NCBI GenBank assembly: GCA_016183615.1
Contig: JACPEG010000027.1
Span: 1 to 64,000 of the forward strand
DNA from: Betaproteobacteria bacterium
GTDB taxonomy: Bacteria; Pseudomonadota; Gammaproteobacteria; Burkholderiales; UBA6910
Length of the DNA stretch: 64,000 bases
Reading direction: 5' to 3'
The notes under the pieces were generated by a model. The model searched no databases. It had not been told where the DNA came from and worked only from the letters and a program-made list of their open reading frames with translations. Made by a program: the position numbers and the translations under genes. Shown in pieces: positions 19,801 through 35,785 of this stretch. Numbering within the stretch: position 1 is the stretch's first letter; each line of letters starts with the position of its first letter.

Positions 19801-19840
19801 TGGCTGGCTATCCCGAAGGCATCGGGGAATGGCTGGCTGG
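19801..19840 (-). repeat. GGCTGGCT twin-repeat hairpin element, copy 1 (bfr leader)
   Basis: GGCTGGCT occurs at 19802-19809 and again at 19831-19838. Between them CCCGA and TCGGG can pair (inner stem of the segment 19810-19830). The element is 40-80 bases upstream of the bfr ATG and downstream of the predicted start site, so it would be transcribed. Related copies lie at 24233, 27804, 33748 (degenerate) and 33901. Confidence 0.6.
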
Positions 19841-22013: not shown

Positions 22014-24200
22014 CTACAATTTGCCTTCCAGCGCCAGAAAGAAGCCGCGCCCGCCCTGCTCGATTTCCCGGGTAACGGTGGTCACCCCCTTGCTGTCGAT
22101 GGCGAACTTGTCCTTGTCCTTCTTCATGTCGAGCAGGTTGACCCCGGTCAAGCGCAGGCCGAAATTGCGATCCAGGCGCTTGTAGACGTATAGGTCAAGG
22201 AGCTTCTGCTCCGCCTCGAAGTCCTGGTTGGGGGCCGCGCCCGGGTCCTTGTTGAAGCGGGGAGTGAAGTTGTAGTTGCCGCCAAAGCTCGCGTCCCAGG
22301 CCAGGAGCTGGTAGTCGAAGCCGATGTTGTACACATAGGGCGGTTGATCCTTGACGTTGGTGGTCTGGCCGGTCGCGCTGTTCTCCAGGCGCGAATAGAG
22401 GCGGGTGGCGTTGGCGCGGAACATGAGCTCGGGCAGGCCGATCGCGTCCATGCGGGCGCGGGCGTCGAGTTCCACGCCCCAGACCCGCGCGTCGCCGACG
22501 TTGAAAGGCCGCTCCACGAAGCGCGCGCCTTCCAGCACGGTGCGCTTCTCGACCTTGTCGGTGATGTCGCGCACGAAGGCATTGGCGCCCAGCACGCCGC
22601 CGGATCGGGGCAGGAAGTTCTCCCAGGCGAGTTCCAGTCCCAGCGCCTTCTCGGGCTTCAAGTCCGGGTTGCCGGACTTGTCCGGGTCGGTGGCGGTTCC
22701 CGACTTGGTTTCGACGACCGAACTCAAGTCGTCGAACTTGGGGGGCTTCACGGTCTCGGTGAGGCTGGCGCGGAGATTGTTGCTGTGATTCACTCGCCAC
22801 AGGTAGTGCAGCGAAGGCGAGTTCGTCAGGTACTTGCCGCTGCGGCTCTGCCCGGCGCCATCGACGGAGCTCTGGGTGATGCGCTGGGAGCGCAGCCCCG
22901 GGGTCAGGAAATGGCCCTCGGCGATCTCGATTTCGTCCTGGAGGAACAGGACCCAGCGCTTCTCCGAGATGTCGAAGCGGTCGCCGCGGCCAGCGGCCTT
23001 GGTCACGCCGTTTTCCACGGTCTGCTTGTCGTCCTTGCGCGACTTGTCGAAGTACTCGATGCCGCCGCCGAGGCGGTGCGCCCCGAATGGCGACTTCAGG
23101 CGGGCGCCGGCAGAGGAGCCCTTTTCATCCACCGAACCTTTTTCCAGGGTGAGCTTGGTCTGCGCCCCGGCCGCGTTGAATTCGCGGGCGGTCTTTTCCT
23201 TATCCTCGGTTCCCGACTGCACCGCGGCGCGGAGGGAAAACTCGCCGCCACCGGCGAGCCGGGTTTTCCACTCGCCGCGCAGGCGGGTGATTTCCCGCTC
23301 CTTGTCCTCGATTTCCGTTTTCTTCCCATCGCCGGCGATGACGGCACCCGTGGCCGGCGGCGTAAGCTTGAACTTATCGGTGGTCTTGCGCTTGTTCTCA
23401 TCCACCCGGGACACGAAGGGGGTGAGGATGAGCTGGCTGCCGCCGCCCAGGTTGACGTTCAGGCGCGGGGCGAAGTCGAATCCGTCGGCCTTCAGGCGTT
23501 CGTCCTCGAATTCCTGTTTCCAGTCGGTGCGGGCGCCGGTAGCGGCGAATTTCTGCTCGTCCTTGGACTTGGTTTTCACCTCGCCTCGCTGGCCGATGGA
23601 GGCGTTGAGCAGCAGGCTGACGTCGCCGTAGCGGTTGCCGTACTGGCCCGAGAGGGTCCTGGTTTCGGCGTCGGCCGTCTGGCCGTTGGTCACCCCGTAG
23701 AGGGCGCGCGCGGAGGCGATGCGCCGCGAGGGGGCATCGCGCAGAACGATGTTGATGGTGCCCATCAGGCCCTCGTTGGGCAGGTCGGCGGTGGGGGCGC
23801 GGATAATTTCGATGCGCTCGATCATGTCGAGCGGCAGGCGGTCCACCTGGAGCTGGCGCTCCTTGGTGCCGGTGGGCACCGGCTCGCCGTCGATCAGGAT
23901 CTGGGTATAACCCTTGTCCAGCCCGCGCACCCGCACGTCCCGGGGCGATCCGGGCGGGCCGCTGAAAGTGACCCCGGGGAGCCGCCGCAGATAGTCGCCC
24001 ACGGTCATTTCGTTCATTTTGTCCAGTTCCTCGCGGCCATAGACCAGGCGGGTGGAGCGGGCATCCCTGCGGGCGTCGAAGTCGTCGCGCTCGGCGTTGA
24101 CCAGGACTACCGGCAGTTCTGATTCAGCGGCGGCGGCCAAAGCCGGGGTGAACCACAGGGCGAGGCACAAAGGTTTGAGTTTCAGGTGCTTGAGTTTCAT
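22014..24200 (-). CDS. TonB-dependent outer-membrane receptor
   Basis: A 728-residue receptor with signal peptide (LCLALWFTPALAAAAE), plug domain from about residue 40 (LPGVTFSGPPG, VRVRGLDKGYTQILIDGEPV, IERIEIIRAPTADLP) and a long beta-barrel ending in the terminal Leu-containing strand FFLALEGKL. The substrate is not clear. The barrel is unusually rich in charged Lys/Asp/Glu loops (KTKSKDEQK, DKEREITR). It follows exbD by 110 bases that hold one GGCTGGCT element, and it precedes the PepSY and reductase genes, which points to a ferric chelate taken up and then reduced. The start is set at the MKLKHLKL methionine. Confidence 0.9.
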   Translation of the reverse strand: MKLKHLKLKPLCLALWFTPALAAAAESELPVVLVNAERDDFDARRDARSTRLVYGREELDKMNEMTVGDYLRRLPGVTFSGPPGSPRDVRVRGLDKGYTQILIDGEPVPTGTKERQLQVDRLPLDMIERIEIIRAPTADLPNEGLMGTINIVLRDAPSRRIASARALYGVTNGQTADAETRTLSGQYGNRYGDVSLLLNASIGQRGEVKTKSKDEQKFAATGARTDWKQEFEDERLKADGFDFAPRLNVNLGGGSQLILTPFVSRVDENKRKTTDKFKLTPPATGAVIAGDGKKTEIEDKEREITRLRGEWKTRLAGGGEFSLRAAVQSGTEDKEKTAREFNAAGAQTKLTLEKGSVDEKGSSAGARLKSPFGAHRLGGGIEYFDKSRKDDKQTVENGVTKAAGRGDRFDISEKRWVLFLQDEIEIAEGHFLTPGLRSQRITQSSVDGAGQSRSGKYLTNSPSLHYLWRVNHSNNLRASLTETVKPPKFDDLSSVVETKSGTATDPDKSGNPDLKPEKALGLELAWENFLPRSGGVLGANAFVRDITDKVEKRTVLEGARFVERPFNVGDARVWGVELDARARMDAIGLPELMFRANATRLYSRLENSATGQTTNVKDQPPYVYNIGFDYQLLAWDASFGGNYNFTPRFNKDPGAAPNQDFEAEQKLLDLYVYKRLDRNFGLRLTGVNLLDMKKDKDKFAIDSKGVTTVTREIEQGGRGFFLALEGKL

Positions 24201-24232
24201 GTCACAGAGCATTTCCGTAAGGCATGGTTGCT

Positions 24233-24264
24233 GGCTGGCTGGTCGGCGGGGCCGCGGGCTGGCT
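24233..24264 (-). repeat. GGCTGGCT twin-repeat hairpin element, copy 2
   Basis: GGCTGGCT at 24233-24240 and 24257-24264, 24 bases apart, with CGGC (24244-24247) and GCCG (24251-24254) able to pair around a 3-base loop. It lies 33-64 bases upstream of the receptor start at 24200. Confidence 0.6.
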
Positions 24265-24309
24265 GGGTCGGTTTCAGGAATTGAGCAGGACGCGTCGACA
24301 GGTTCTACC

Positions 24310-24729
24310 TCAGCGCGTGTCGGGCAGCGTGACGAACCCCAGCTTCGCGATGCCCGCGTTCTGGGCCGCCGCCATCACTTCGGCGATTCGCTGGTAGCGG
24401 GTGTTGCGGTCGGCGCGCAGGTGCAGCTCCGGCTGCGGGGTCTTCTGCGCGGCCTGCGCGAGGTGCGCCGGCAGCGCCGCGTCCGCCACCGGCTCGTTGT
24501 TCCAGAACACCCGGCCTCGCTCGTCGATGGCAAGGTTGACGGTGTCCGGTTTTTCCGGGTTCACCTGGCTCTGGGCCTGGGGCAGGTCGATTTTCACCGC
24601 GTGGGTAAACAGGGGCGCGGTGACCATGAAGATGATGAGCAGCACCAGCATCACGTCCACCAGGGGCGTGGTGTTGATCTCGCTCATGAGGGGCGCCTCG
24701 CCCTCCTGGTTGAATCCGCCGAAGGCCAT
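24310..24729 (-). CDS. exbD: biopolymer transport protein ExbD
   Basis: A 139-residue energising protein of the TonB system. It has a short cytoplasmic N-terminus, one transmembrane helix around residues 24-42 (PLVDVMLVLLIIFMVTAPLF) with the essential membrane Asp, and a periplasmic domain. It works with ExbB as a proton-driven motor for TonB. It begins directly after the exbB stop codon (adjacent bases), so translation is coupled. The receptor downstream is a likely client. Confidence 0.93.
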   Translation of the reverse strand: MAFGGFNQEGEAPLMSEINTTPLVDVMLVLLIIFMVTAPLFTHAVKIDLPQAQSQVNPEKPDTVNLAIDERGRVFWNNEPVADAALPAHLAQAAQKTPQPELHLRADRNTRYQRIAEVMAAAQNAGIAKLGFVTLPDTR

Positions 24730-25488
24730 TCAGACGCCTCCCGCCGCGTGCGTTCGCAGGCTGGCGACGCTTGCGCCCGGGTGGTCCGCATGTCCGGGGC
24801 TTTGCAGCCTGGCGCCGGTGGTGAGATAGGCGTGAAGATCGTGGGCGAAGGCGTCGAGGTCGGCGAGCACCACGCGATTGGCCCGCACCAGGAAGTTGTA
24901 GGCGAGCACGGCGGGAATCGCCACCGCGAGGCCCAGGGCCGTCATGATCAGCGCCTCTCCCACCGGACCGGCGACCTTGTCGATCGTGGCCTGACCGGTG
25001 AATCCGATCCCGATGAGCGCGTGGTAGATCCCCCACACCGTGCCGAACAGACCGACGAAGGGCGCGGTGGAGCCGATCGAGGCCAGCACCGTGAGCCCGG
25101 CTTCGATCTCAGCCGTCGCGCGCCCGATGGCGCGCCGAATCGCACGCGTCACGAACTCCGAGAGGGCGAGCGTCGCGGCGAGCCTGTCCCCGACATGGCG
25201 TTGATGGTGGGCCACCGCGTCGGCGCCGGCGGCGGCGGTATGGGAAAAGGGGCTCTCCGGCGCGGCAAGCTGCATGTGGGCAATGGCCTCGGTCAGGCTC
25301 TCCGCGCTCCAGAACGCGTTCAGTGCCCGGTCTGCGCGGCGCCGGATGCGCCAGGCCTGCCAGGCCTTGGTCACGATGAGGTACCAGGTCGTCACCGACA
25401 TGGTGAGTAACAGCAACGCTGCAGACTTGCCGACGGCATCGGCCTGGGCCCAGAAACCGAGGATGCTCATGGATGTGGTTTGATGCAT
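24730..25488 (-). CDS. exbB: TonB-system proton channel subunit ExbB (intact copy)
   Basis: A 252-residue MotA/TolQ/ExbB protein with three transmembrane segments: one near residues 14-35, and two in the MotA/ExbB domain (LTVLASIGSTAPFVGLFGTVWGIYHAL and ALGLAVAIPAVLAYNFLV). The motif GLFGTVWGI is typical. The start at the MHQTTSM methionine matches the start in the truncated copy at 28014. The first 50 codons and 16 bases of upstream sequence are part of a 167-bp direct repeat also found behind tonB (27864-28030). The upstream bases encode the last three codons and stop of tonB, showing that this copy once followed tonB directly. Confidence 0.93.
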   Translation of the reverse strand: MHQTTSMSILGFWAQADAVGKSAALLLLTMSVTTWYLIVTKAWQAWRIRRRADRALNAFWSAESLTEAIAHMQLAAPESPFSHTAAAGADAVAHHQRHVGDRLAATLALSEFVTRAIRRAIGRATAEIEAGLTVLASIGSTAPFVGLFGTVWGIYHALIGIGFTGQATIDKVAGPVGEALIMTALGLAVAIPAVLAYNFLVRANRVVLADLDAFAHDLHAYLTTGARLQSPGHADHPGASVASLRTHAAGGV

Positions 25489-25504
25489 GGGATTAGCCTT
25501 CCAG
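25338..25504. repeat. 167-bp direct repeat, copy A (5' end of intact exbB)
   Basis: Identical to 27864-28030 except for one base (CCAGGCC here, CCACGCC there), at an offset of 2526 bases in the same orientation. It runs from the last three codons of tonB (CTGGAAGGCTAA on the minus strand) through codon 50 of exbB. Homology stops sharply at both ends. Confidence 0.95.
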
Positions 25505-25530
25505 CCTTTCATCCGGCCATTCCTCCTCAA

Positions 25531-25998
25531 TTAGCCTACTCGTGAAATATCGGGGCTAAATGTTCGTCCATGTTTGCCTGCGGTGACATGGATGGGCACG
25601 AGCAGCGCCAAGGCAAGGCCCAGCCCCTGATGGACCAGGCTCAGGGCATTGCGCCAGCCTTCATGAGGTGGGTAGTACAGGGTCAGGCCGGTAACGACGA
25701 GCGCCAGCAGTGTACCGGTCAGCGCGCCGCCGCTGACACGATTGCGCCGTGCCCGCCACGCGCCATGCTGATGGTGCGGGAAGAGGGTGCCCACCAGCCA
25801 TAGCAGGGCGTATGCCGAGATGGCGTGCAGCACCAGCAGACGGTGGCGCCAGGCACGGAGGGGGTTGGTGAAGTCGAGCGGGTCCAGACGCAGCCCCATG
25901 CCGATCCAGGCGATGCCGCTCAGCACGACGATGGCGAGCGCAGCGAAGATCAGCCGTCGCTGAAGGGGCGGAAGACGGATGTCCGGAAAGGCGCTCAT
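25531..25998 (-). CDS. inner-membrane protein, DUF4405/cytochrome b-like
   Basis: A 155-residue protein with four predicted transmembrane helices and several His residues in or near the helices (LVLHAISAYALLWLVGTLFPHHQHG, SLVHQGLGLALALLVPIHV). This is the pattern of small di-heme cytochrome b or ferric-reductase-like membrane proteins. It overlaps the FMN-binding gene start region by 4 bases and is presumably its membrane electron donor. It is the last gene of the inserted cassette, just before the intact exbB. Heme binding is inferred from the His positions. Confidence 0.7.
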   Translation of the reverse strand: MSAFPDIRLPPLQRRLIFAALAIVVLSGIAWIGMGLRLDPLDFTNPLRAWRHRLLVLHAISAYALLWLVGTLFPHHQHGAWRARRNRVSGGALTGTLLALVVTGLTLYYPPHEGWRNALSLVHQGLGLALALLVPIHVTAGKHGRTFSPDISRVG

Positions 25999-26513
25999 GT
26001 GCGGGCCACGGTGCCGACGACGTGGTTGTGGAACAGCAGGGCGAGCCGGGCTAGCCGGGTCAGCGCCCGCACCGAGAGGGTGGCGCCGGAGATGCCGTCG
26101 ATGCCCCGATCCAGCGTCTGACGCGCGGTGAGGCGCGCGCCGTCGAACTGGCGCGTAAAAGCGGGGCTTTTCACTTCCCAGCCTCGGCTTTCCCGATATA
26201 CCAGCACCCGTACCCGCTCCACAGCACCGTGGTCCACGCTGATGCCCACTGTGATGGGCAATTCCTTGCCGATCTCGTCCAGCACCCAGGCGGTGCGTTG
26301 CCCGATACGCCAATAGCGCACGCGCACGGCCGGATAGTCGTGTTCCAGAATGGCGCGCGCGGCCGGGCGCAGCTCACCCGCGAGCCAGAGGATCTCCGGC
26401 GCGGGCGGCTGCGTGAAGACCTCGCGCAGAAAGCGGTCGGTCTCCGCCTCCTGATCGGCGGCCCAGACCGGCGCGGCGAAGGCCAGAAGAAACAGGAGGC
26501 GAAAGACAAACAT
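25995..26513 (-). CDS. exported FMN-binding domain protein
   Basis: A 172-residue protein with a Sec signal peptide (FRLLFLLAFAAPVWA, cleavage near residue 18) and a C-terminal FMN-binding domain. It has the covalent flavinylation motif DGISGATLS (SGAT at residues 142-145), where the Thr receives FMN from an ApbE-type transferase. Such proteins act as periplasmic flavin electron carriers. With the overlapping downstream membrane protein it would form a transmembrane electron path to the periplasm, useful for ferric reduction. No apbE gene is visible in this window. It is part of the cassette splitting tonB from exbB. Confidence 0.8.
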   Translation of the reverse strand: MFVFRLLFLLAFAAPVWAADQEAETDRFLREVFTQPPAPEILWLAGELRPAARAILEHDYPAVRVRYWRIGQRTAWVLDEIGKELPITVGISVDHGAVERVRVLVYRESRGWEVKSPAFTRQFDGARLTARQTLDRGIDGISGATLSVRALTRLARLALLFHNHVVGTVART

Positions 26514-26514
26514 G

Positions 26515-27762
26515 CTAGAACTGGTAGCCGACGCCGACGTTGAAGCCGTCGAACTCGTCCTTGCCGTTGGGCGCGTTCTGCTTCTGGTAGTCCAGCTTGA
26601 CCACCACGTCGCGATGCGGCCAGAAGTTCACGCCCACGTCCGACTGGGCGAAGCGGCTGTCGGTAGCGTCGCCGGCCTGGTTGTCCCAGCGGCTGTGGCG
26701 CGCGAATACACCCCACTGCTCGGAGAGCTTGAAGGACGGCTCGACATACCAGCCTTTCTGCTTGTCGGCTCCCACGGCTTTCGGCCCGCTGCCTTCGAGA
26801 TCCCAGTTCGCGTAGAGCGCGCGCAAGCCGAATGCCCCTTTGTTGAGCACGGCGTGGGCTTCGTACAGCTTCGCACTGCCCGCGGTGGCGTCGGCGCTCT
26901 GGGTGATGTCGGATTGGTACTGCACCGTCCCCGCGAGTTCCAGGCCGGGCATGCCAGTCCATTTCAGGCGCGCGGTGTAGGCCGCGTCTTTCGCCTTGGC
27001 CTTGGCGACTTTCAGTCGGCCGTCACGCACCGCATAGTTCTTCGCGGCTGTCGTCTGCAGACCGCTGGTCACCGCGCCGTCCACGCTGAAGCCGTTGCCC
27101 AGGTTCGCGCTTAGACTTGCCCCCCCCTCCCACCACGTCGTGGGAATGATGTTGTTTTCGACCGGGTTGCGTTCGACGCCGTAAAACGTGGGCGGTTCGT
27201 GGGTTTCGTTCAGGATGCCGACCGGCATCAGGAACAGACCTGCCTTTGCCGACAAGCTGTCGGTCAGTCTGAAATCCAGGTAGGCCTGCTCCAGTTCGAC
27301 TTCCCCGGGACCCGAGGCGTCCTTAGTATCCTTGACCAGGACGTGCTCAATCTCCAGCTCGGATTGGAAGCGTACCTTGTCATTGAATTGATGCCCCATG
27401 AACAGCACGAAACGATGAAAATCCAGCTCGTCCTTGTTGCTGCCGCCGGGTTTGTTGTTTTTCAGCTTGTTCAAGTGCAGTTCGCCGTATCCGCCGAACT
27501 GGGTCTTCTCCGCCCAGGCGGCCTTCGCCGAGGGACCTTGGCTGACAATCTTTTCCACCTGTTCGCCAGTGGCTTCCACCTTCTGTTCGGCTTGTCGGAG
27601 TTGCCCCTTCAGAGTCTGGTTTTCTTTTTCCAGGCTGTTCAGCCGGGCTTCCAGCGCCTTTAGGCGCTCTTCCACGCTCATGTCGGCCTGCGCGGGTCCG
27701 GCAAGGCCGAGCAGCGCCGCCATGGCGGCTGACGCTACGATGCTTCGTTTTTCACTGATCAT
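26515..27762 (-). CDS. OprO/OprP-like outer-membrane porin with coiled coil
   Basis: A 415-residue outer-membrane protein. A signal peptide (residues 1-26) precedes a coiled coil (VEERLKALEARLNSLEKENQTLKGQLRQ, about 29-60). A 16-strand-type barrel ends in the terminal aromatic FNVGVGYQF. Coiled-coil N-termini are typical of trimeric phosphate-selective or carbohydrate porins and of some metal-related porins. The ATG at 27762 has AAGGAAA upstream. The open frame continues upstream into the truncated exbB, but that is not part of this gene. Context suggests import of a small iron-related solute, though phosphate or other anions are possible. Confidence 0.8.
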   Translation of the reverse strand: MISEKRSIVASAAMAALLGLAGPAQADMSVEERLKALEARLNSLEKENQTLKGQLRQAEQKVEATGEQVEKIVSQGPSAKAAWAEKTQFGGYGELHLNKLKNNKPGGSNKDELDFHRFVLFMGHQFNDKVRFQSELEIEHVLVKDTKDASGPGEVELEQAYLDFRLTDSLSAKAGLFLMPVGILNETHEPPTFYGVERNPVENNIIPTTWWEGGASLSANLGNGFSVDGAVTSGLQTTAAKNYAVRDGRLKVAKAKAKDAAYTARLKWTGMPGLELAGTVQYQSDITQSADATAGSAKLYEAHAVLNKGAFGLRALYANWDLEGSGPKAVGADKQKGWYVEPSFKLSEQWGVFARHSRWDNQAGDATDSRFAQSDVGVNFWPHRDVVVKLDYQKQNAPNGKDEFDGFNVGVGYQF

Positions 27763-27803
27763 TTGTCGTTTCCTTCGAAAAAAGCACATGAAACACAGGT
27801 TTT

Positions 27804-27839
27804 GGCTAGCTGCCGAAGGAAACTCCGGACTGGCTGGCT
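27804..27839 (-). repeat. GGCTGGCT twin-repeat hairpin element, copy 3
   Basis: GGCTAGCT at 27804-27811 and GGCTGGCT at 27832-27839. Between them CC-GGA (27813-14, 27818-20) can pair with TCC-GG (27824-28) around AAC, with a 3-base bulge. It lies 42-77 bases upstream of the porin start, and 25 bases from the edge of the 167-bp repeat. Confidence 0.5.
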
Positions 27840-27863
27840 GGAAAGGTGGGCAGGCGGAGCCAG

Positions 27864-28014
27864 GGCGCCGGATGCGCCAGGCCTGCCACGCCTTGGTCAC
27901 GATGAGGTACCAGGTCGTCACCGACATGGTGAGTAACAGCAACGCTGCAGACTTGCCGACGGCATCGGCCTGGGCCCAGAAACCGAGGATGCTCATGGAT
28001 GTGGTTTGATGCAT
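27864..28014 (-). pseudogene. exbB: truncated exbB (first 50 codons)
   Basis: The frame starting at the ATG at 28014 reads identically to intact ExbB for 50 residues (MHQTTSMSILGFW to AWRIRR, apart from the single base change). It then continues into unrelated Pro/Ala-rich sequence. Only the first transmembrane helix remains; the proton-channel helices are lost. It begins 4 bases after the tonB stop, the expected original spacing. It could still be translated as a short membrane peptide. Confidence 0.93.
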
Positions 28015-28030
28015 GGGATTAGCCTTCCAG
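27864..28030. repeat. 167-bp direct repeat, copy B (behind tonB)
   Basis: Second copy of the repeat at 25338-25504, differing by one base. This copy is contiguous with the complete tonB gene, so it holds the ancestral tonB-exbB junction. Confidence 0.95.
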
Positions 28031-28654
28031 AACGATGACCCAGCCTCCGACCGCTTGGTCCCCCTGTCGCGCGGGGACGAAGCGCCATTGCCCGACCGCC
28101 TCTTTGGCCGCCCGGTCGAGGCGCGCGGAGCTGCTCGATGTTCGGATTTCCACTTGCTGCGGGCGGCCGTCGGCGCCGACGAATACGCGCAGCAGCACCT
28201 TGCCCTGCTCGCCCAGGCGCCTTGAGAGCGCGGGGTACGGAGGCGCAGGATTCCGCAGGTAGGCGGCATCGAAGCGCGGCGGAACCAGCGGCGGCGGCGG
28301 CGCTCCGGCCGAAACGGCGGGAGCCGGGGGGACTGCCGCGGCCGGCGCCGGCTCGCGCACCGGCGTCTCGACGGTGATCGCATTCGCCACCGGTTCCGGC
28401 GCCCGAGGCGGCGCCACTGGTTGCGCCACCGCTCTGGGCTTGGGGTCGGAGCGTCGCGGCGGCGTGGGGGCTGGCGACGGCGGGAGCGGCCGGGCCGGCG
28501 TAATCAGGCTCACCATGATTGGCGCGATTGCCTGCCGCAACTCGGGACTCGCCTGCACCACCAGCACCAGCAGTAAGACATGCCCCCCCAGCACCGCACC
28601 AATCCGGCCGGCAAAACCGAGGGTGTCGTAGTTTCGGTTGGAGACTCGCGTCAT
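28019..28654 (-). CDS. tonB: energy transducer TonB
   Basis: A 211-residue TonB protein: N-terminal transmembrane helix (IGAVLGGHVLLLVLVV, about residues 18-33), Pro-rich periplasm-spanning region (about 50-125), and C-terminal domain with YPALSRRLGEQGKVLLRVFV, the classic TonB YP...GxV motif. It carries energy from ExbB/ExbD to the outer-membrane receptors. ATG 28654 is preferred to the GTG at 28663; neither has a strong ribosome binding site. It is followed 4 bases later by the truncated exbB, with intact exbB/exbD now 2.5 kb further on. Confidence 0.93.
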   Translation of the reverse strand: MTRVSNRNYDTLGFAGRIGAVLGGHVLLLVLVVQASPELRQAIAPIMVSLITPARPLPPSPAPTPPRRSDPKPRAVAQPVAPPRAPEPVANAITVETPVREPAPAAAVPPAPAVSAGAPPPPLVPPRFDAAYLRNPAPPYPALSRRLGEQGKVLLRVFVGADGRPQQVEIRTSSSSARLDRAAKEAVGQWRFVPARQGDQAVGGWVIVLEG

Positions 28655-28669
28655 CGGTCGCACCCGCTG

Positions 28670-31166: not shown

Positions 31167-31433
31167 TCATTGCAACAACGGAGTCGCAGTCGAAGAGCGC
31201 TCCACCTTGTGCATTTCATAAATCAGCCCGTACCACTCCACGATCAGCTTGCGGCACACCTGCCGCAGCATCGGCGAAACCGCGTCGCTGGGATAGTTGG
31301 CCAGGAACTCCAGTTGCTGGACCACCAGCCGCGCCTTGTAGGGGCAGTGGGTTGTGGCATGGTGGGTCATCAGGTGCAGCGCCGCAGCCACAATGACACC
31401 CGGGTCGGGCAGATCACGGCAGTTCATGGTCAT
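31167..31433 (-). CDS. small hypothetical protein of the heme operon
   Basis: An 88-residue soluble protein of unknown family, helical, with several His and Cys residues (ALHLMTHHATTHCPYKARL near residues 18-36). The ATG at 31433 follows GGGAGGT at 6 bases. It sits between the heme-receptor gene and the ABM gene with short gaps, so it belongs to the same operon. The HH...H.C cluster could bind heme or metal, but this is only a possibility. Confidence 0.65.
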   Translation of the reverse strand: MTMNCRDLPDPGVIVAAALHLMTHHATTHCPYKARLVVQQLEFLANYPSDAVSPMLRQVCRKLIVEWYGLIYEMHKVERSSTATPLLQ

Positions 31434-31453
31434 CTCCGTACCTCCCTTTGCAA

Positions 31454-33712
31454 TCAGAACTGGTACTCGAAGCTTGCGGCCACGTGCCGTCCCGGCTGGG
31501 AATAGAAGTCCACCCCCGCCGGGTCGCGGGAATCGGCCTGGCGGATGTCGCTCCACAGCCAGTACTTCCTGTCGAAGAGGTTGTTCACCGCCAGGACGAG
31601 TCGCGCCTGTTTGGCCGGCTTCCACCAGGCCGACAGGTCCACGACTCCGTAGCCCGGCGGGCGGAACCAGACCCCGCCGGTGACGTCCACCCGATCCTTG
31701 TCCGTTGCCGCTCGCAGCCGACCCTCGGCGCCCCAGGCGCCGGCGTCGCGGGAAAGCGCGACTGAAAGCCGGGCCGGCTCGATGCTGTTCAGCGGTTGCC
31801 CGCTGTCTTCATTGGTCCCCCGCGCATAAGCCAGCGCGCCCTCCAGCCGCCAGCCGGGAGTGAAGTCCCAGCCGCCGCGGACTTCCGCCCCGTAGATGCG
31901 CACCTTGCTCAGGTTCACGGACATGAAAGTGGTCCCGAGCCCGGCGATGCAGTTGGGATTCCCCGGGCAGGCGAGCCGCACTCTCTCGATGAAGTCCTGG
32001 TAGCGGTTGTCGAAGACGGCGATCTGGCCGCGCACCCCGGCGCGATTCAAGCGCAGCCCGACCTCCACGCCGGTGCTCGTCTCCGGCTTGAGGCTGGGGT
32101 TGGGACTGATTCCGTAGTTCTGGATGGGGTTGCGAAAGGTGCCGTTCACCTCCTCGTAGTTGGGCGCCCGAAAGCCGCGCACGATCTGGCCGTAGCCGGC
32201 AAGAGCTGGCGAAATCTGCCAAAGCGCGGCCAGCTTGGGCGATATCGCGCTGTCCGTCTGGGAGACGGCCTGCTTGCCGTTGGCGGTGAGCACAGCCTGG
32301 GCCAGGACGTCGACCTCGGGCTTGAGGCGGCGCCGATCGTAGCGCAGCCCCGGGGTGAGAGAGAGCCTGCCGCCAGCCAACCCGGCGATCTCATCCTGAA
32401 CGAACGCTCCCACCGTGTCGGTGACGCCGGTGGCGAAATCCCGCACGGGGAAGTTATCGCCGGCCAGGGACTTGAAGAAGGCGCCGGTGGTCAGGTTCCG
32501 CACCCGGGCATCGCGCAACTCCTCGGTGCGCAGCCGCGACAGATCGGCGCCGAAGGTGAGGAAATGGCTTGCACTCACTGCTTTTTCCAACTGGACACCA
32601 CCGCCGGTGGCGGTCTGCTCGAAAAAGAAGTCCTGTTCCACGGCGCAGTTGTTGCCGGAGCCGAACGAGGCCGAGCAGGTGGCGCTGGTATCGCTGCGGA
32701 CCTGCCGGTTGAAGTTCGCCGTGTCCGAGTCCTGGCGATAGAGGCGCACTGTGGCCCGGTCGTAAAAGCCGCTTCCCGGCTTGTGTTCCCATTCCAAGCT
32801 GCCCCGCACCCGCCGGCCATGATCGTCCCCGCTCGTGGCGGTGACCTTCGGCAGCGTCGATGACAGGCGCAAAACCTGGATATCGACATCCTGGTCGCGG
32901 CCTTCCAGCGCGAGGGCCACTTTGTGACCGGCGGCGGGCTTGAGCAGGAGCTTGGCCAGCAGCCCCCGATCGCGCAGGTCCTGCGGGTTGGGCTCGGTGC
33001 GGTTGGTGGCGACTGTATTTACGTCGCCGTGGTTGTCGAGTTCGGATGCGCCGGTCCGGGTGTAGCCCCACAGCCACTCCAGCGTCTCGCCCCGGCCCGC
33101 TCCGATCAGGGTTCCGGTGAAGCCTTCATTGACCCCGGCGTAACCTGCCCGGGCACGCGCTACAAACTTGTCTTTCCCCTGCAGCAGATCGGCTGGATCC
33201 AGGGTGAGGTAGCCCACCACGCCGCCGATGGCATCCGAGCCGTAGAGACTCGAGGCCGGCCCGCGCAGGATTTCCACGCGCTTCAGGAACTCCAGCGAGG
33301 CGGAAGGCGGCGCGCTCATGGTGAAGTTGGTCGGGCCGCCGCCGTCGCGGAAATCCGGCAGGCGGACCCCATCCACCATCTGGATGACACGGGTGTCCTC
33401 GATGCCGCGGATGTTGGGGCGGGTCGCGCCGAAGCGGCGCAGATCGCGGGAGAACACCATGTCCGGCTCGTCCTTGAAGAGATCGGCTTCGTCGGCCGGC
33501 AGGCGCGTATCGATCTCCTTGCGGCCAATGATGGTCACGGTGGCCGGCACCTTGTCCGCCTCCGTTTCGACGCGGGTGGCAGTGACCACCACATTCCTGA
33601 GGGTGGGGGTATCGGCCTCGGCCATGGCGCCGCTCGTCCAAGCGGCAATGGCAAGGGCAATACCAGCGGCGGGAAACGCCCGACGCGCGGGCAGCAGGGT
33701 CAAAGCAAGCAT
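31454..33712 (-). CDS. TonB-dependent heme/hemoglobin receptor
   Basis: A 752-residue receptor of the hemoglobin/transferrin/lactoferrin receptor type. A signal peptide (about residues 1-33) precedes a TonB box-like NVVVTATR segment, the plug (RPNIRGIEDTRVIQMVDGVRLPD, RVEILRGPASSLYGSDAIGGVV) and a barrel ending in SFEYQF. FRAPNYEEVNG followed by NPSLKPE corresponds to the FRAP/NPNL box of heme receptors, but the conserved His between the two halves is not present. The start is set at ATG 33712, with GGAG 9 bases upstream, rather than the TTG at 33742. A Fur-like site lies at 33804-33818 and a partial GGCTGGCT element at 33748. Confidence 0.9.
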   Translation of the reverse strand: MLALTLLPARRAFPAAGIALAIAAWTSGAMAEADTPTLRNVVVTATRVETEADKVPATVTIIGRKEIDTRLPADEADLFKDEPDMVFSRDLRRFGATRPNIRGIEDTRVIQMVDGVRLPDFRDGGGPTNFTMSAPPSASLEFLKRVEILRGPASSLYGSDAIGGVVGYLTLDPADLLQGKDKFVARARAGYAGVNEGFTGTLIGAGRGETLEWLWGYTRTGASELDNHGDVNTVATNRTEPNPQDLRDRGLLAKLLLKPAAGHKVALALEGRDQDVDIQVLRLSSTLPKVTATSGDDHGRRVRGSLEWEHKPGSGFYDRATVRLYRQDSDTANFNRQVRSDTSATCSASFGSGNNCAVEQDFFFEQTATGGGVQLEKAVSASHFLTFGADLSRLRTEELRDARVRNLTTGAFFKSLAGDNFPVRDFATGVTDTVGAFVQDEIAGLAGGRLSLTPGLRYDRRRLKPEVDVLAQAVLTANGKQAVSQTDSAISPKLAALWQISPALAGYGQIVRGFRAPNYEEVNGTFRNPIQNYGISPNPSLKPETSTGVEVGLRLNRAGVRGQIAVFDNRYQDFIERVRLACPGNPNCIAGLGTTFMSVNLSKVRIYGAEVRGGWDFTPGWRLEGALAYARGTNEDSGQPLNSIEPARLSVALSRDAGAWGAEGRLRAATDKDRVDVTGGVWFRPPGYGVVDLSAWWKPAKQARLVLAVNNLFDRKYWLWSDIRQADSRDPAGVDFYSQPGRHVAASFEYQF

Positions 33713-33747
33713 CGAAGGCAACTCCGTTGTTGAAATGTCCAAACATG

Positions 33748-33818: not shown

Positions 33819-33900
33819 TTTGCCGGTCAACCGGAAGGTTGCGCATCGGCGAATTGAATTGAAAGTCAAAAAAAAGCCAGCCCGCAAAAATGACATGCTT

Positions 33901-33932
33901 GGCTGGCTGTTTCCGGATGGAAATGGCTGGCT
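33901..33932 (-). repeat. GGCTGGCT twin-repeat hairpin element, copy 4
   Basis: GGCTGGCT at 33901-33908 and 33925-33932, 24 bases apart, enclosing the perfect hairpin TTTCC-GGAT-GGAAA (33910-33923). It lies between hemP and the heme receptor. With copy 1 it shares the longer edge GCTTGGCTGGCT. Confidence 0.65.
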
Positions 33933-33995
33933 GGCGGACCCGTGCGGGCTCAAGAGGCGGGTCCCCAATTCATGATTCGACTATGCGCGCATGAT

Positions 33996-34193
33996 TCAAG
34001 CTGTCAGTATCAGCTTGCCCTTGCCGGTCAAGCGCAGTCGGTATTCCCTGCCCGCGTGCTCGATGACCACTTCATTGCCGCGGTCGAACAGCTCTGCGCT
34101 GGTCATGCGTCGCACCGGCAATCGCTGCGGCGCGCTTTTGGGCTGCTTGCCGTGCTTCGCGTTCCCGGCTTGCGCCGATTTGTTTTCCATCAT
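33996..34193 (-). CDS. hemP: hemin uptake protein HemP
   Basis: A 65-residue HemP/HmuP protein. The C-terminal half carries the family signature: a MTSAELF segment, then EVVIEHAGREYRLRLTGKGKLIL, with a basic, low-complexity N-terminus. In related bacteria HemP/HmuP is needed for heme utilisation and activates heme-receptor expression. It lies directly before the heme receptor on the same strand, separated by 283 bases with regulatory elements, which suits such a role. The second methionine is an equally possible start. Confidence 0.88.
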   Translation of the reverse strand: MMENKSAQAGNAKHGKQPKSAPQRLPVRRMTSAELFDRGNEVVIEHAGREYRLRLTGKGKLILTA

Positions 34194-35756: not shown

Positions 35757-35785
35757 TTGACTTTAAAAGTGAGAATTATTATCAT
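35757..35785 (+). promoter_or_regulatory. promoter with overlapping Fur box (fbpABC)
   Basis: TTGACT (35757-35762), a 17-base spacer and TATCAT (35780-35785) form a good sigma-70 promoter. TGAGAATTATTATCA (35770-35784) matches 14 of 15 positions of the 7-1-7 Fur consensus and covers the -10 box. The start site would be near 35792, 42 bases before the fbpA ATG. Confidence 0.85.

Follow-up and report, generated by a model that had tools for sequence, protein, structure and literature searches.

The window, a stretch of 64,000 nucleotides analysed here as a whole, contains a tonB-exbB-exbD operon split by three additional genes and surrounded by a hemP/heme-receptor/FTR1/ferritin cluster. On the minus strand the order of transcription is tonB, a 50-codon exbB fragment (exbB'), a porin, an FMN-binding protein, a cytochrome b561-type protein, exbB, exbD and a TonB-dependent receptor. 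The features are as follows.

33996..34193, minus strand: hemP (HemP/HmuP-family regulator; PF10636, E 6.6e-16)
31454..33742, minus strand: heme/hemoglobin-type TonB-dependent receptor 2 (TIGR01785 and TIGR01786 above cut-off)
28019..28663, minus strand: tonB, complete (TonB_C, PF03544, E 1.6e-17)
27864..28030, minus strand: repeat copy B, holding the end of tonB, the 4-nt spacer and the truncated exbB' of 50 codons (sequence comparison)
25505..27863, minus strand: inserted DNA, 2359 bp (2526 bp counting one repeat copy)
26515..27762, minus strand: outer-membrane porin (Porin_O_P, PF07396, E 1e-8)
25995..26513, minus strand: FMN-binding-domain protein (FMN_bind, PF04205, E 4.4e-8)
25531..25998, minus strand: cytochrome b561-type membrane protein (Ni_hydr_CYTB, PF01292, E 3.4e-9)
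25505..25530, minus strand: 26-nt tail from the b561 stop to copy A, with GAGGAGG and, in the exbB frame, an ATG (25512) (read directly)
25338..25504, minus strand: repeat copy A, opening the intact exbB (sequence comparison)
24730..25488, minus strand: exbB, complete (MotA_ExbB, PF01618, E 9.6e-32), with its native ATG at 25488 and a possible new start at 25512
24310..24729, minus strand: exbD (ExbD, PF02472, E 3.1e-34)
22014..24212, minus strand: TonB-dependent receptor 1 (profile match), with two CCAGCCAGCC copies just upstream (24233-24266)

A first-pass annotation had placed a porin, an FMN-binding protein and a small membrane protein between the repeats. Pfam matches were obtained for all three, the third being a cytochrome b561/Ni-hydrogenase cytochrome b protein. 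The FMN-binding protein contains DGISGATLS, which we take to resemble the ApbE flavinylation motif, and a single gene for ApbE is found elsewhere in the genome. A separate, unannotated 152-aa protein with no Pfam match is encoded at 31167-31625; by eye it resembles the product of the gene next after b561 in locus L046 (from about 10265 onwards).

The repeat pair and the uninterrupted operon

The two direct repeats (25338-25504 and 27864-28030) are identical at 166 of 167 positions and lie 2526 bp apart, start to start, as the first-pass annotation had described. Their single mismatch, AAG-GCC versus AAG-GCG, is synonymous and falls within exbB. Each copy holds the last three codons of tonB, the stop, the 4-nt spacer and 50 codons of exbB. 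This agrees with the span that had been annotated, as does the finding that copy B is joined to a whole tonB and leaves a truncated exbB while copy A opens the intact gene; the cassette, given earlier as 2.36 kb, measured 2359 bp. A window-wide search for repeats of at least 50 bp returned this pair alone, and a genome search found no further copies of the 167-bp sequence anywhere in the 3.74-Mb draft, which excludes a chance origin.

G003, a relative within the same family, has its genes arranged as hemP, tonB, exbB, exbD and receptor; its exbB ATG follows the tonB stop after 3 nt, and tonB lies directly before exbB in other members of the order too. Since the module is absent from G003 and only 3 nt part its tonB from its exbB, the contiguous state is the ancestral one; this comparison for an uninterrupted target is at the level of the family. 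Removal of 2526 bp in silico gave an intact tonB, 4 nt and an intact exbB, and the ExbB product was identical whichever repeat copy was kept, bearing out the proposal that exchange between the repeats would restore tonB-exbB. The earlier reading as an insertion into tonB-exbB-exbD with duplication of the junction was upheld by the uninterrupted operon of G003 and by the siting of the module elsewhere in other genomes, the two things to which comparison with related genomes had been directed. No related genome was found to have the same order with two unrelated full exbB genes.

At the downstream edge of the inserted DNA, exbB should still be translatable because the repeat includes its native start site. 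The sequence TTGAGGAGGAATGGCCGGATGAAAGG comprises a Shine-Dalgarno sequence and an ATG in the exbB frame, beside the native start and adding eight residues, and the 26-nt tail may thus have given exbB an additional start in its own frame, together with another Shine-Dalgarno sequence. At the upstream edge the truncated exbB' (from 28014) has no stop, and its frame continues through the leader into the porin; by rough reckoning such an open frame has about one chance in ten of arising, and it may mean nothing.

The module in other genomes

Of 56 loci from named genomes, most had the porin and FMN_bind genes as a pair. The third gene was of the b561 type in the nearest eight loci, all from Betaproteobacteria, and encoded a PepSY protein in many others. 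Among 200 sampled genomes of the order, 23 (including that of the window) had the porin at E<=1e-40; it is absent from the same-family genomes G002 and G003. None of the 56 named-genome loci had tonB or exbB beside the module on the same strand, and the placement of the module between tonB and exbB was not seen in the other loci examined.

Three loci (L093, L095 and L099; two from Akkermansiaceae and one from an unassigned bacterium) had exbB/exbD on the opposite strand near the porin/FMN-binding module, and two of them had tonB as well, so that a recurring functional link to TonB may exist.

Sequence trees placed the host genome and the module differently. In the rpoB tree the genome grouped with its family (G001/G003). 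In the porin+FMN tree the window fell in a clade with HGW-Betaproteobacteria-14 (78.7% identity) and Gallionellaceae (support 0.99), against only 54% identity to the family member G001. This conflict points to horizontal acquisition of the module from a Gallionellaceae-like betaproteobacterial lineage. Within that clade the grouping of the window with HGW-Betaproteobacteria-14 had a low branch support of 0.48. For the b561 protein, identity to the nearest relatives was only 59% and the tree was poorly resolved, which counts against this explanation.

Origin of the insertion

The gene insertion is clear, and events of this kind are already known. In E. coli, a single crossover integrates circles whose homologous segment has been shortened, with duplications of 109-950 bp as the outcome; such events were seen together with homology-facilitated illegitimate recombination (PMC3240628). 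Like those insertions, the locus described here has a short direct target duplication, of 167 bp, associated with foreign DNA; the target repeat stands on both sides of that DNA and an uninterrupted target is present in a relative (at family level). It differs from them in being natural and unselected, and here we infer the donor circle. An illegitimate join between the module and a 167-bp tonB-exbB fragment would first have arisen in a small, non-replicating circle, which would then have integrated at the tonB/exbB junction by a single crossover of the RecA type, duplicating the 167 bp. The module would have arrived with its own leader, including the HPRE-like element treated below. Taken together, we judge it fairly probable that a Gallionellaceae-like module was inserted into a contiguous tonB-exbB-exbD with duplication of 167 bp, most likely through single crossover of a circle, and that it is transcribed from outside and has a reductive function.

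The near identity of the repeats had been read in the first-pass annotation as the sign of a recent or gene-converted event. This holds for the duplication (or for a later gene conversion) but not for the arrival of the module, which the repeats do not date since its nearest sampled relative differs by 21% at the protein level and its GC content is unremarkable. Foreign base composition was considered as a sign of recency and set aside, both GC and GC3 of the module being within the range of its neighbors.

The same sequence would result if a larger tandem duplication, covering tonB-exbB and a nearby module acquired earlier, had been trimmed by deletions with no circle involved. Bacteria are known to form tandem duplications, and also small duplications that lack repeats at their flanks (PMC3784515), and the unremarkable GC content suggests that the module may have been resident in the genome for a while. 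However, this history requires a nearby module and two independent join points; the window holds no remnant of a larger duplication, and the module was found nowhere else in the genome. We regard it as rather unlikely. An artefact of assembly or binning, with the tonB-exbB sequence serving to link two strain variants or two contigs, has to be weighed because the genome is a draft of 63 contigs and about 94% complete. It is improbable: there is a one-base difference between the repeat copies, the join is deep within a long contig, the module suits a coding operon and has signals that make sense on either side, and contamination amounts to 0.79%. The compact gene cassette between direct repeats might suggest that a long target duplication was made by a dedicated mobile element or a site-specific system, but this is highly improbable given that a profile search found no recombinase or integrase gene among the three cassette genes, that there are no terminal inverted repeats at the edges of the inserted DNA (as a transposon or integron cassette would lead one to look for), and that the module occurs elsewhere without these repeats. 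A plasmid or phage source was also considered, but the cassette matched no phage and had no plasmid as a close match. We thus found no evidence for a self-mobile cassette.

The porin leader, transcription and predicted function

The leader of the porin gene contains a candidate HmuP-responsive element (HPRE), and related repeats occur elsewhere in the window.

33903-33934, minus strand: HPRE-like CAGCCAGCC repeats in the hemP-heme receptor gap
27804..27841, minus strand: HPRE-like element in the porin leader, made up of CCAGCCAGCC, 20 nt and AGCTAGCC, with a degenerate second half
27768..27823, minus strand (within 27763-27863): perfect 10-bp stem between the spacer of the HPRE and the Shine-Dalgarno region of the porin, weakly supported statistically (7/500 shuffles as good)
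24231-24266, minus strand: HPRE-like CAGCCAGCC repeats upstream of receptor 1, with two CCAGCCAGCC copies
19804-19840, minus strand: HPRE-like CAGCCAGCC repeats preceding a ferritin-like gene

The window holds five copies of CCAGCCAGCC where 0.34 would be expected, and none of 100 shuffles reached five. All five are on the coding strand and upstream of iron-related genes: one before the ferritin-like gene, two before receptor 1, one before the cassette porin and one in the gap between hemP and the heme receptor. A strict bipartite form of the motif had four matches genome-wide (two of them overlapping), at three places that are all in this window, while the reversed control pattern had no match in the genome; the porin copy, with its degenerate second half, is not among the strict matches. 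An HPRE-like element was present upstream of the porin in seven of the eight betaproteobacterial relatives and in 10 of 54 loci overall, compared with 1.5% of random windows and none of the controls. As this is far above background, the element very likely travelled with the module.

The CAGCCAGCC element of the porin leader matches the HPRE as it is given in PMC9131926 (citing Amarelle 2019), where it is described for heme receptors. As in the HemP/HmuP regulon outlined there, CAGCCAGCC-type repeats lie shortly upstream of the starts of iron and heme genes, including in the hemP-heme receptor gap, and hemP is in the genome. The locus differs from that account in having the repeats also before the porin/FMN-binding module and a ferritin-like gene and not before receptors alone. 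What is new here is the putative HPRE-like element carried by the cassette in the porin leader.

A conserved hairpin hiding the porin Shine-Dalgarno region was considered and rejected, since 7 of 500 shuffles matched the stem and no conserved stem was established in relatives; Rfam gave no match in the leaders. In the hemP-heme receptor gap (33867-33908, minus strand) the second half of the HPRE makes up the 5' arm of a stem that looks like a terminator and is followed by a T run, an arrangement that would be compatible with antitermination through a bound regulator. The overlap of HPRE and terminator was not kept as a general rule, as it was seen only in the window among the loci compared.

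A Fur-box-like sequence, judged by eye, lies upstream of the porin in loci L047 and L048. The cassette, unlike these, lacks a Fur-box-like promoter region, and the best Fur-like matches of the window are near 35765 (14/19 positions), ahead of the DUF2325, BFD, FTR1 and hemP genes. Lacking such a region, the cassette is probably transcribed from outside, and the surrounding iron/heme operon is the probable source.

We drew the function of the module from its domain content and from papers on flavinylated iron reductases (PMC8238504, PMC11334425), which describe flavinylation-associated reductase clusters pairing an FMN-binding protein with a membrane cytochrome or a PepSY protein. The module resembles these in having an exported FMN-binding protein (FMN_bind) beside a membrane electron-transfer protein of the cytochrome type, an iron context and ApbE encoded elsewhere in the genome. 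It differs in its partners, which are a b561-type protein and a porin of the Porin_O_P type; neither paper uses the word porin in its main text, and a literature search on porin together with FMN-binding and PepSY found nothing. From these domains the three genes probably serve iron or heme reduction: substrate would enter through the porin, and the flavinylated protein, fed through b561, would reduce periplasmic ferric iron or heme.

The locus appears to be a case of operon invasion caught in nature, in which a module from another lineage splits a conserved and tightly coupled pair while both genes stay intact, and the insertion is exactly reversible on paper. Its leader motif would connect a porin/flavoprotein module that is so far uncharacterised with the regulation of heme and iron. 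It is possible, if somewhat doubtful, that the module is a portable iron/heme reduction unit controlled by HemP via the HPRE in its own mRNA leader. If this is true, the HemP regulon would reach beyond outer-membrane receptors, and such a unit could enter foreign operons yet keep its own post-transcriptional control.
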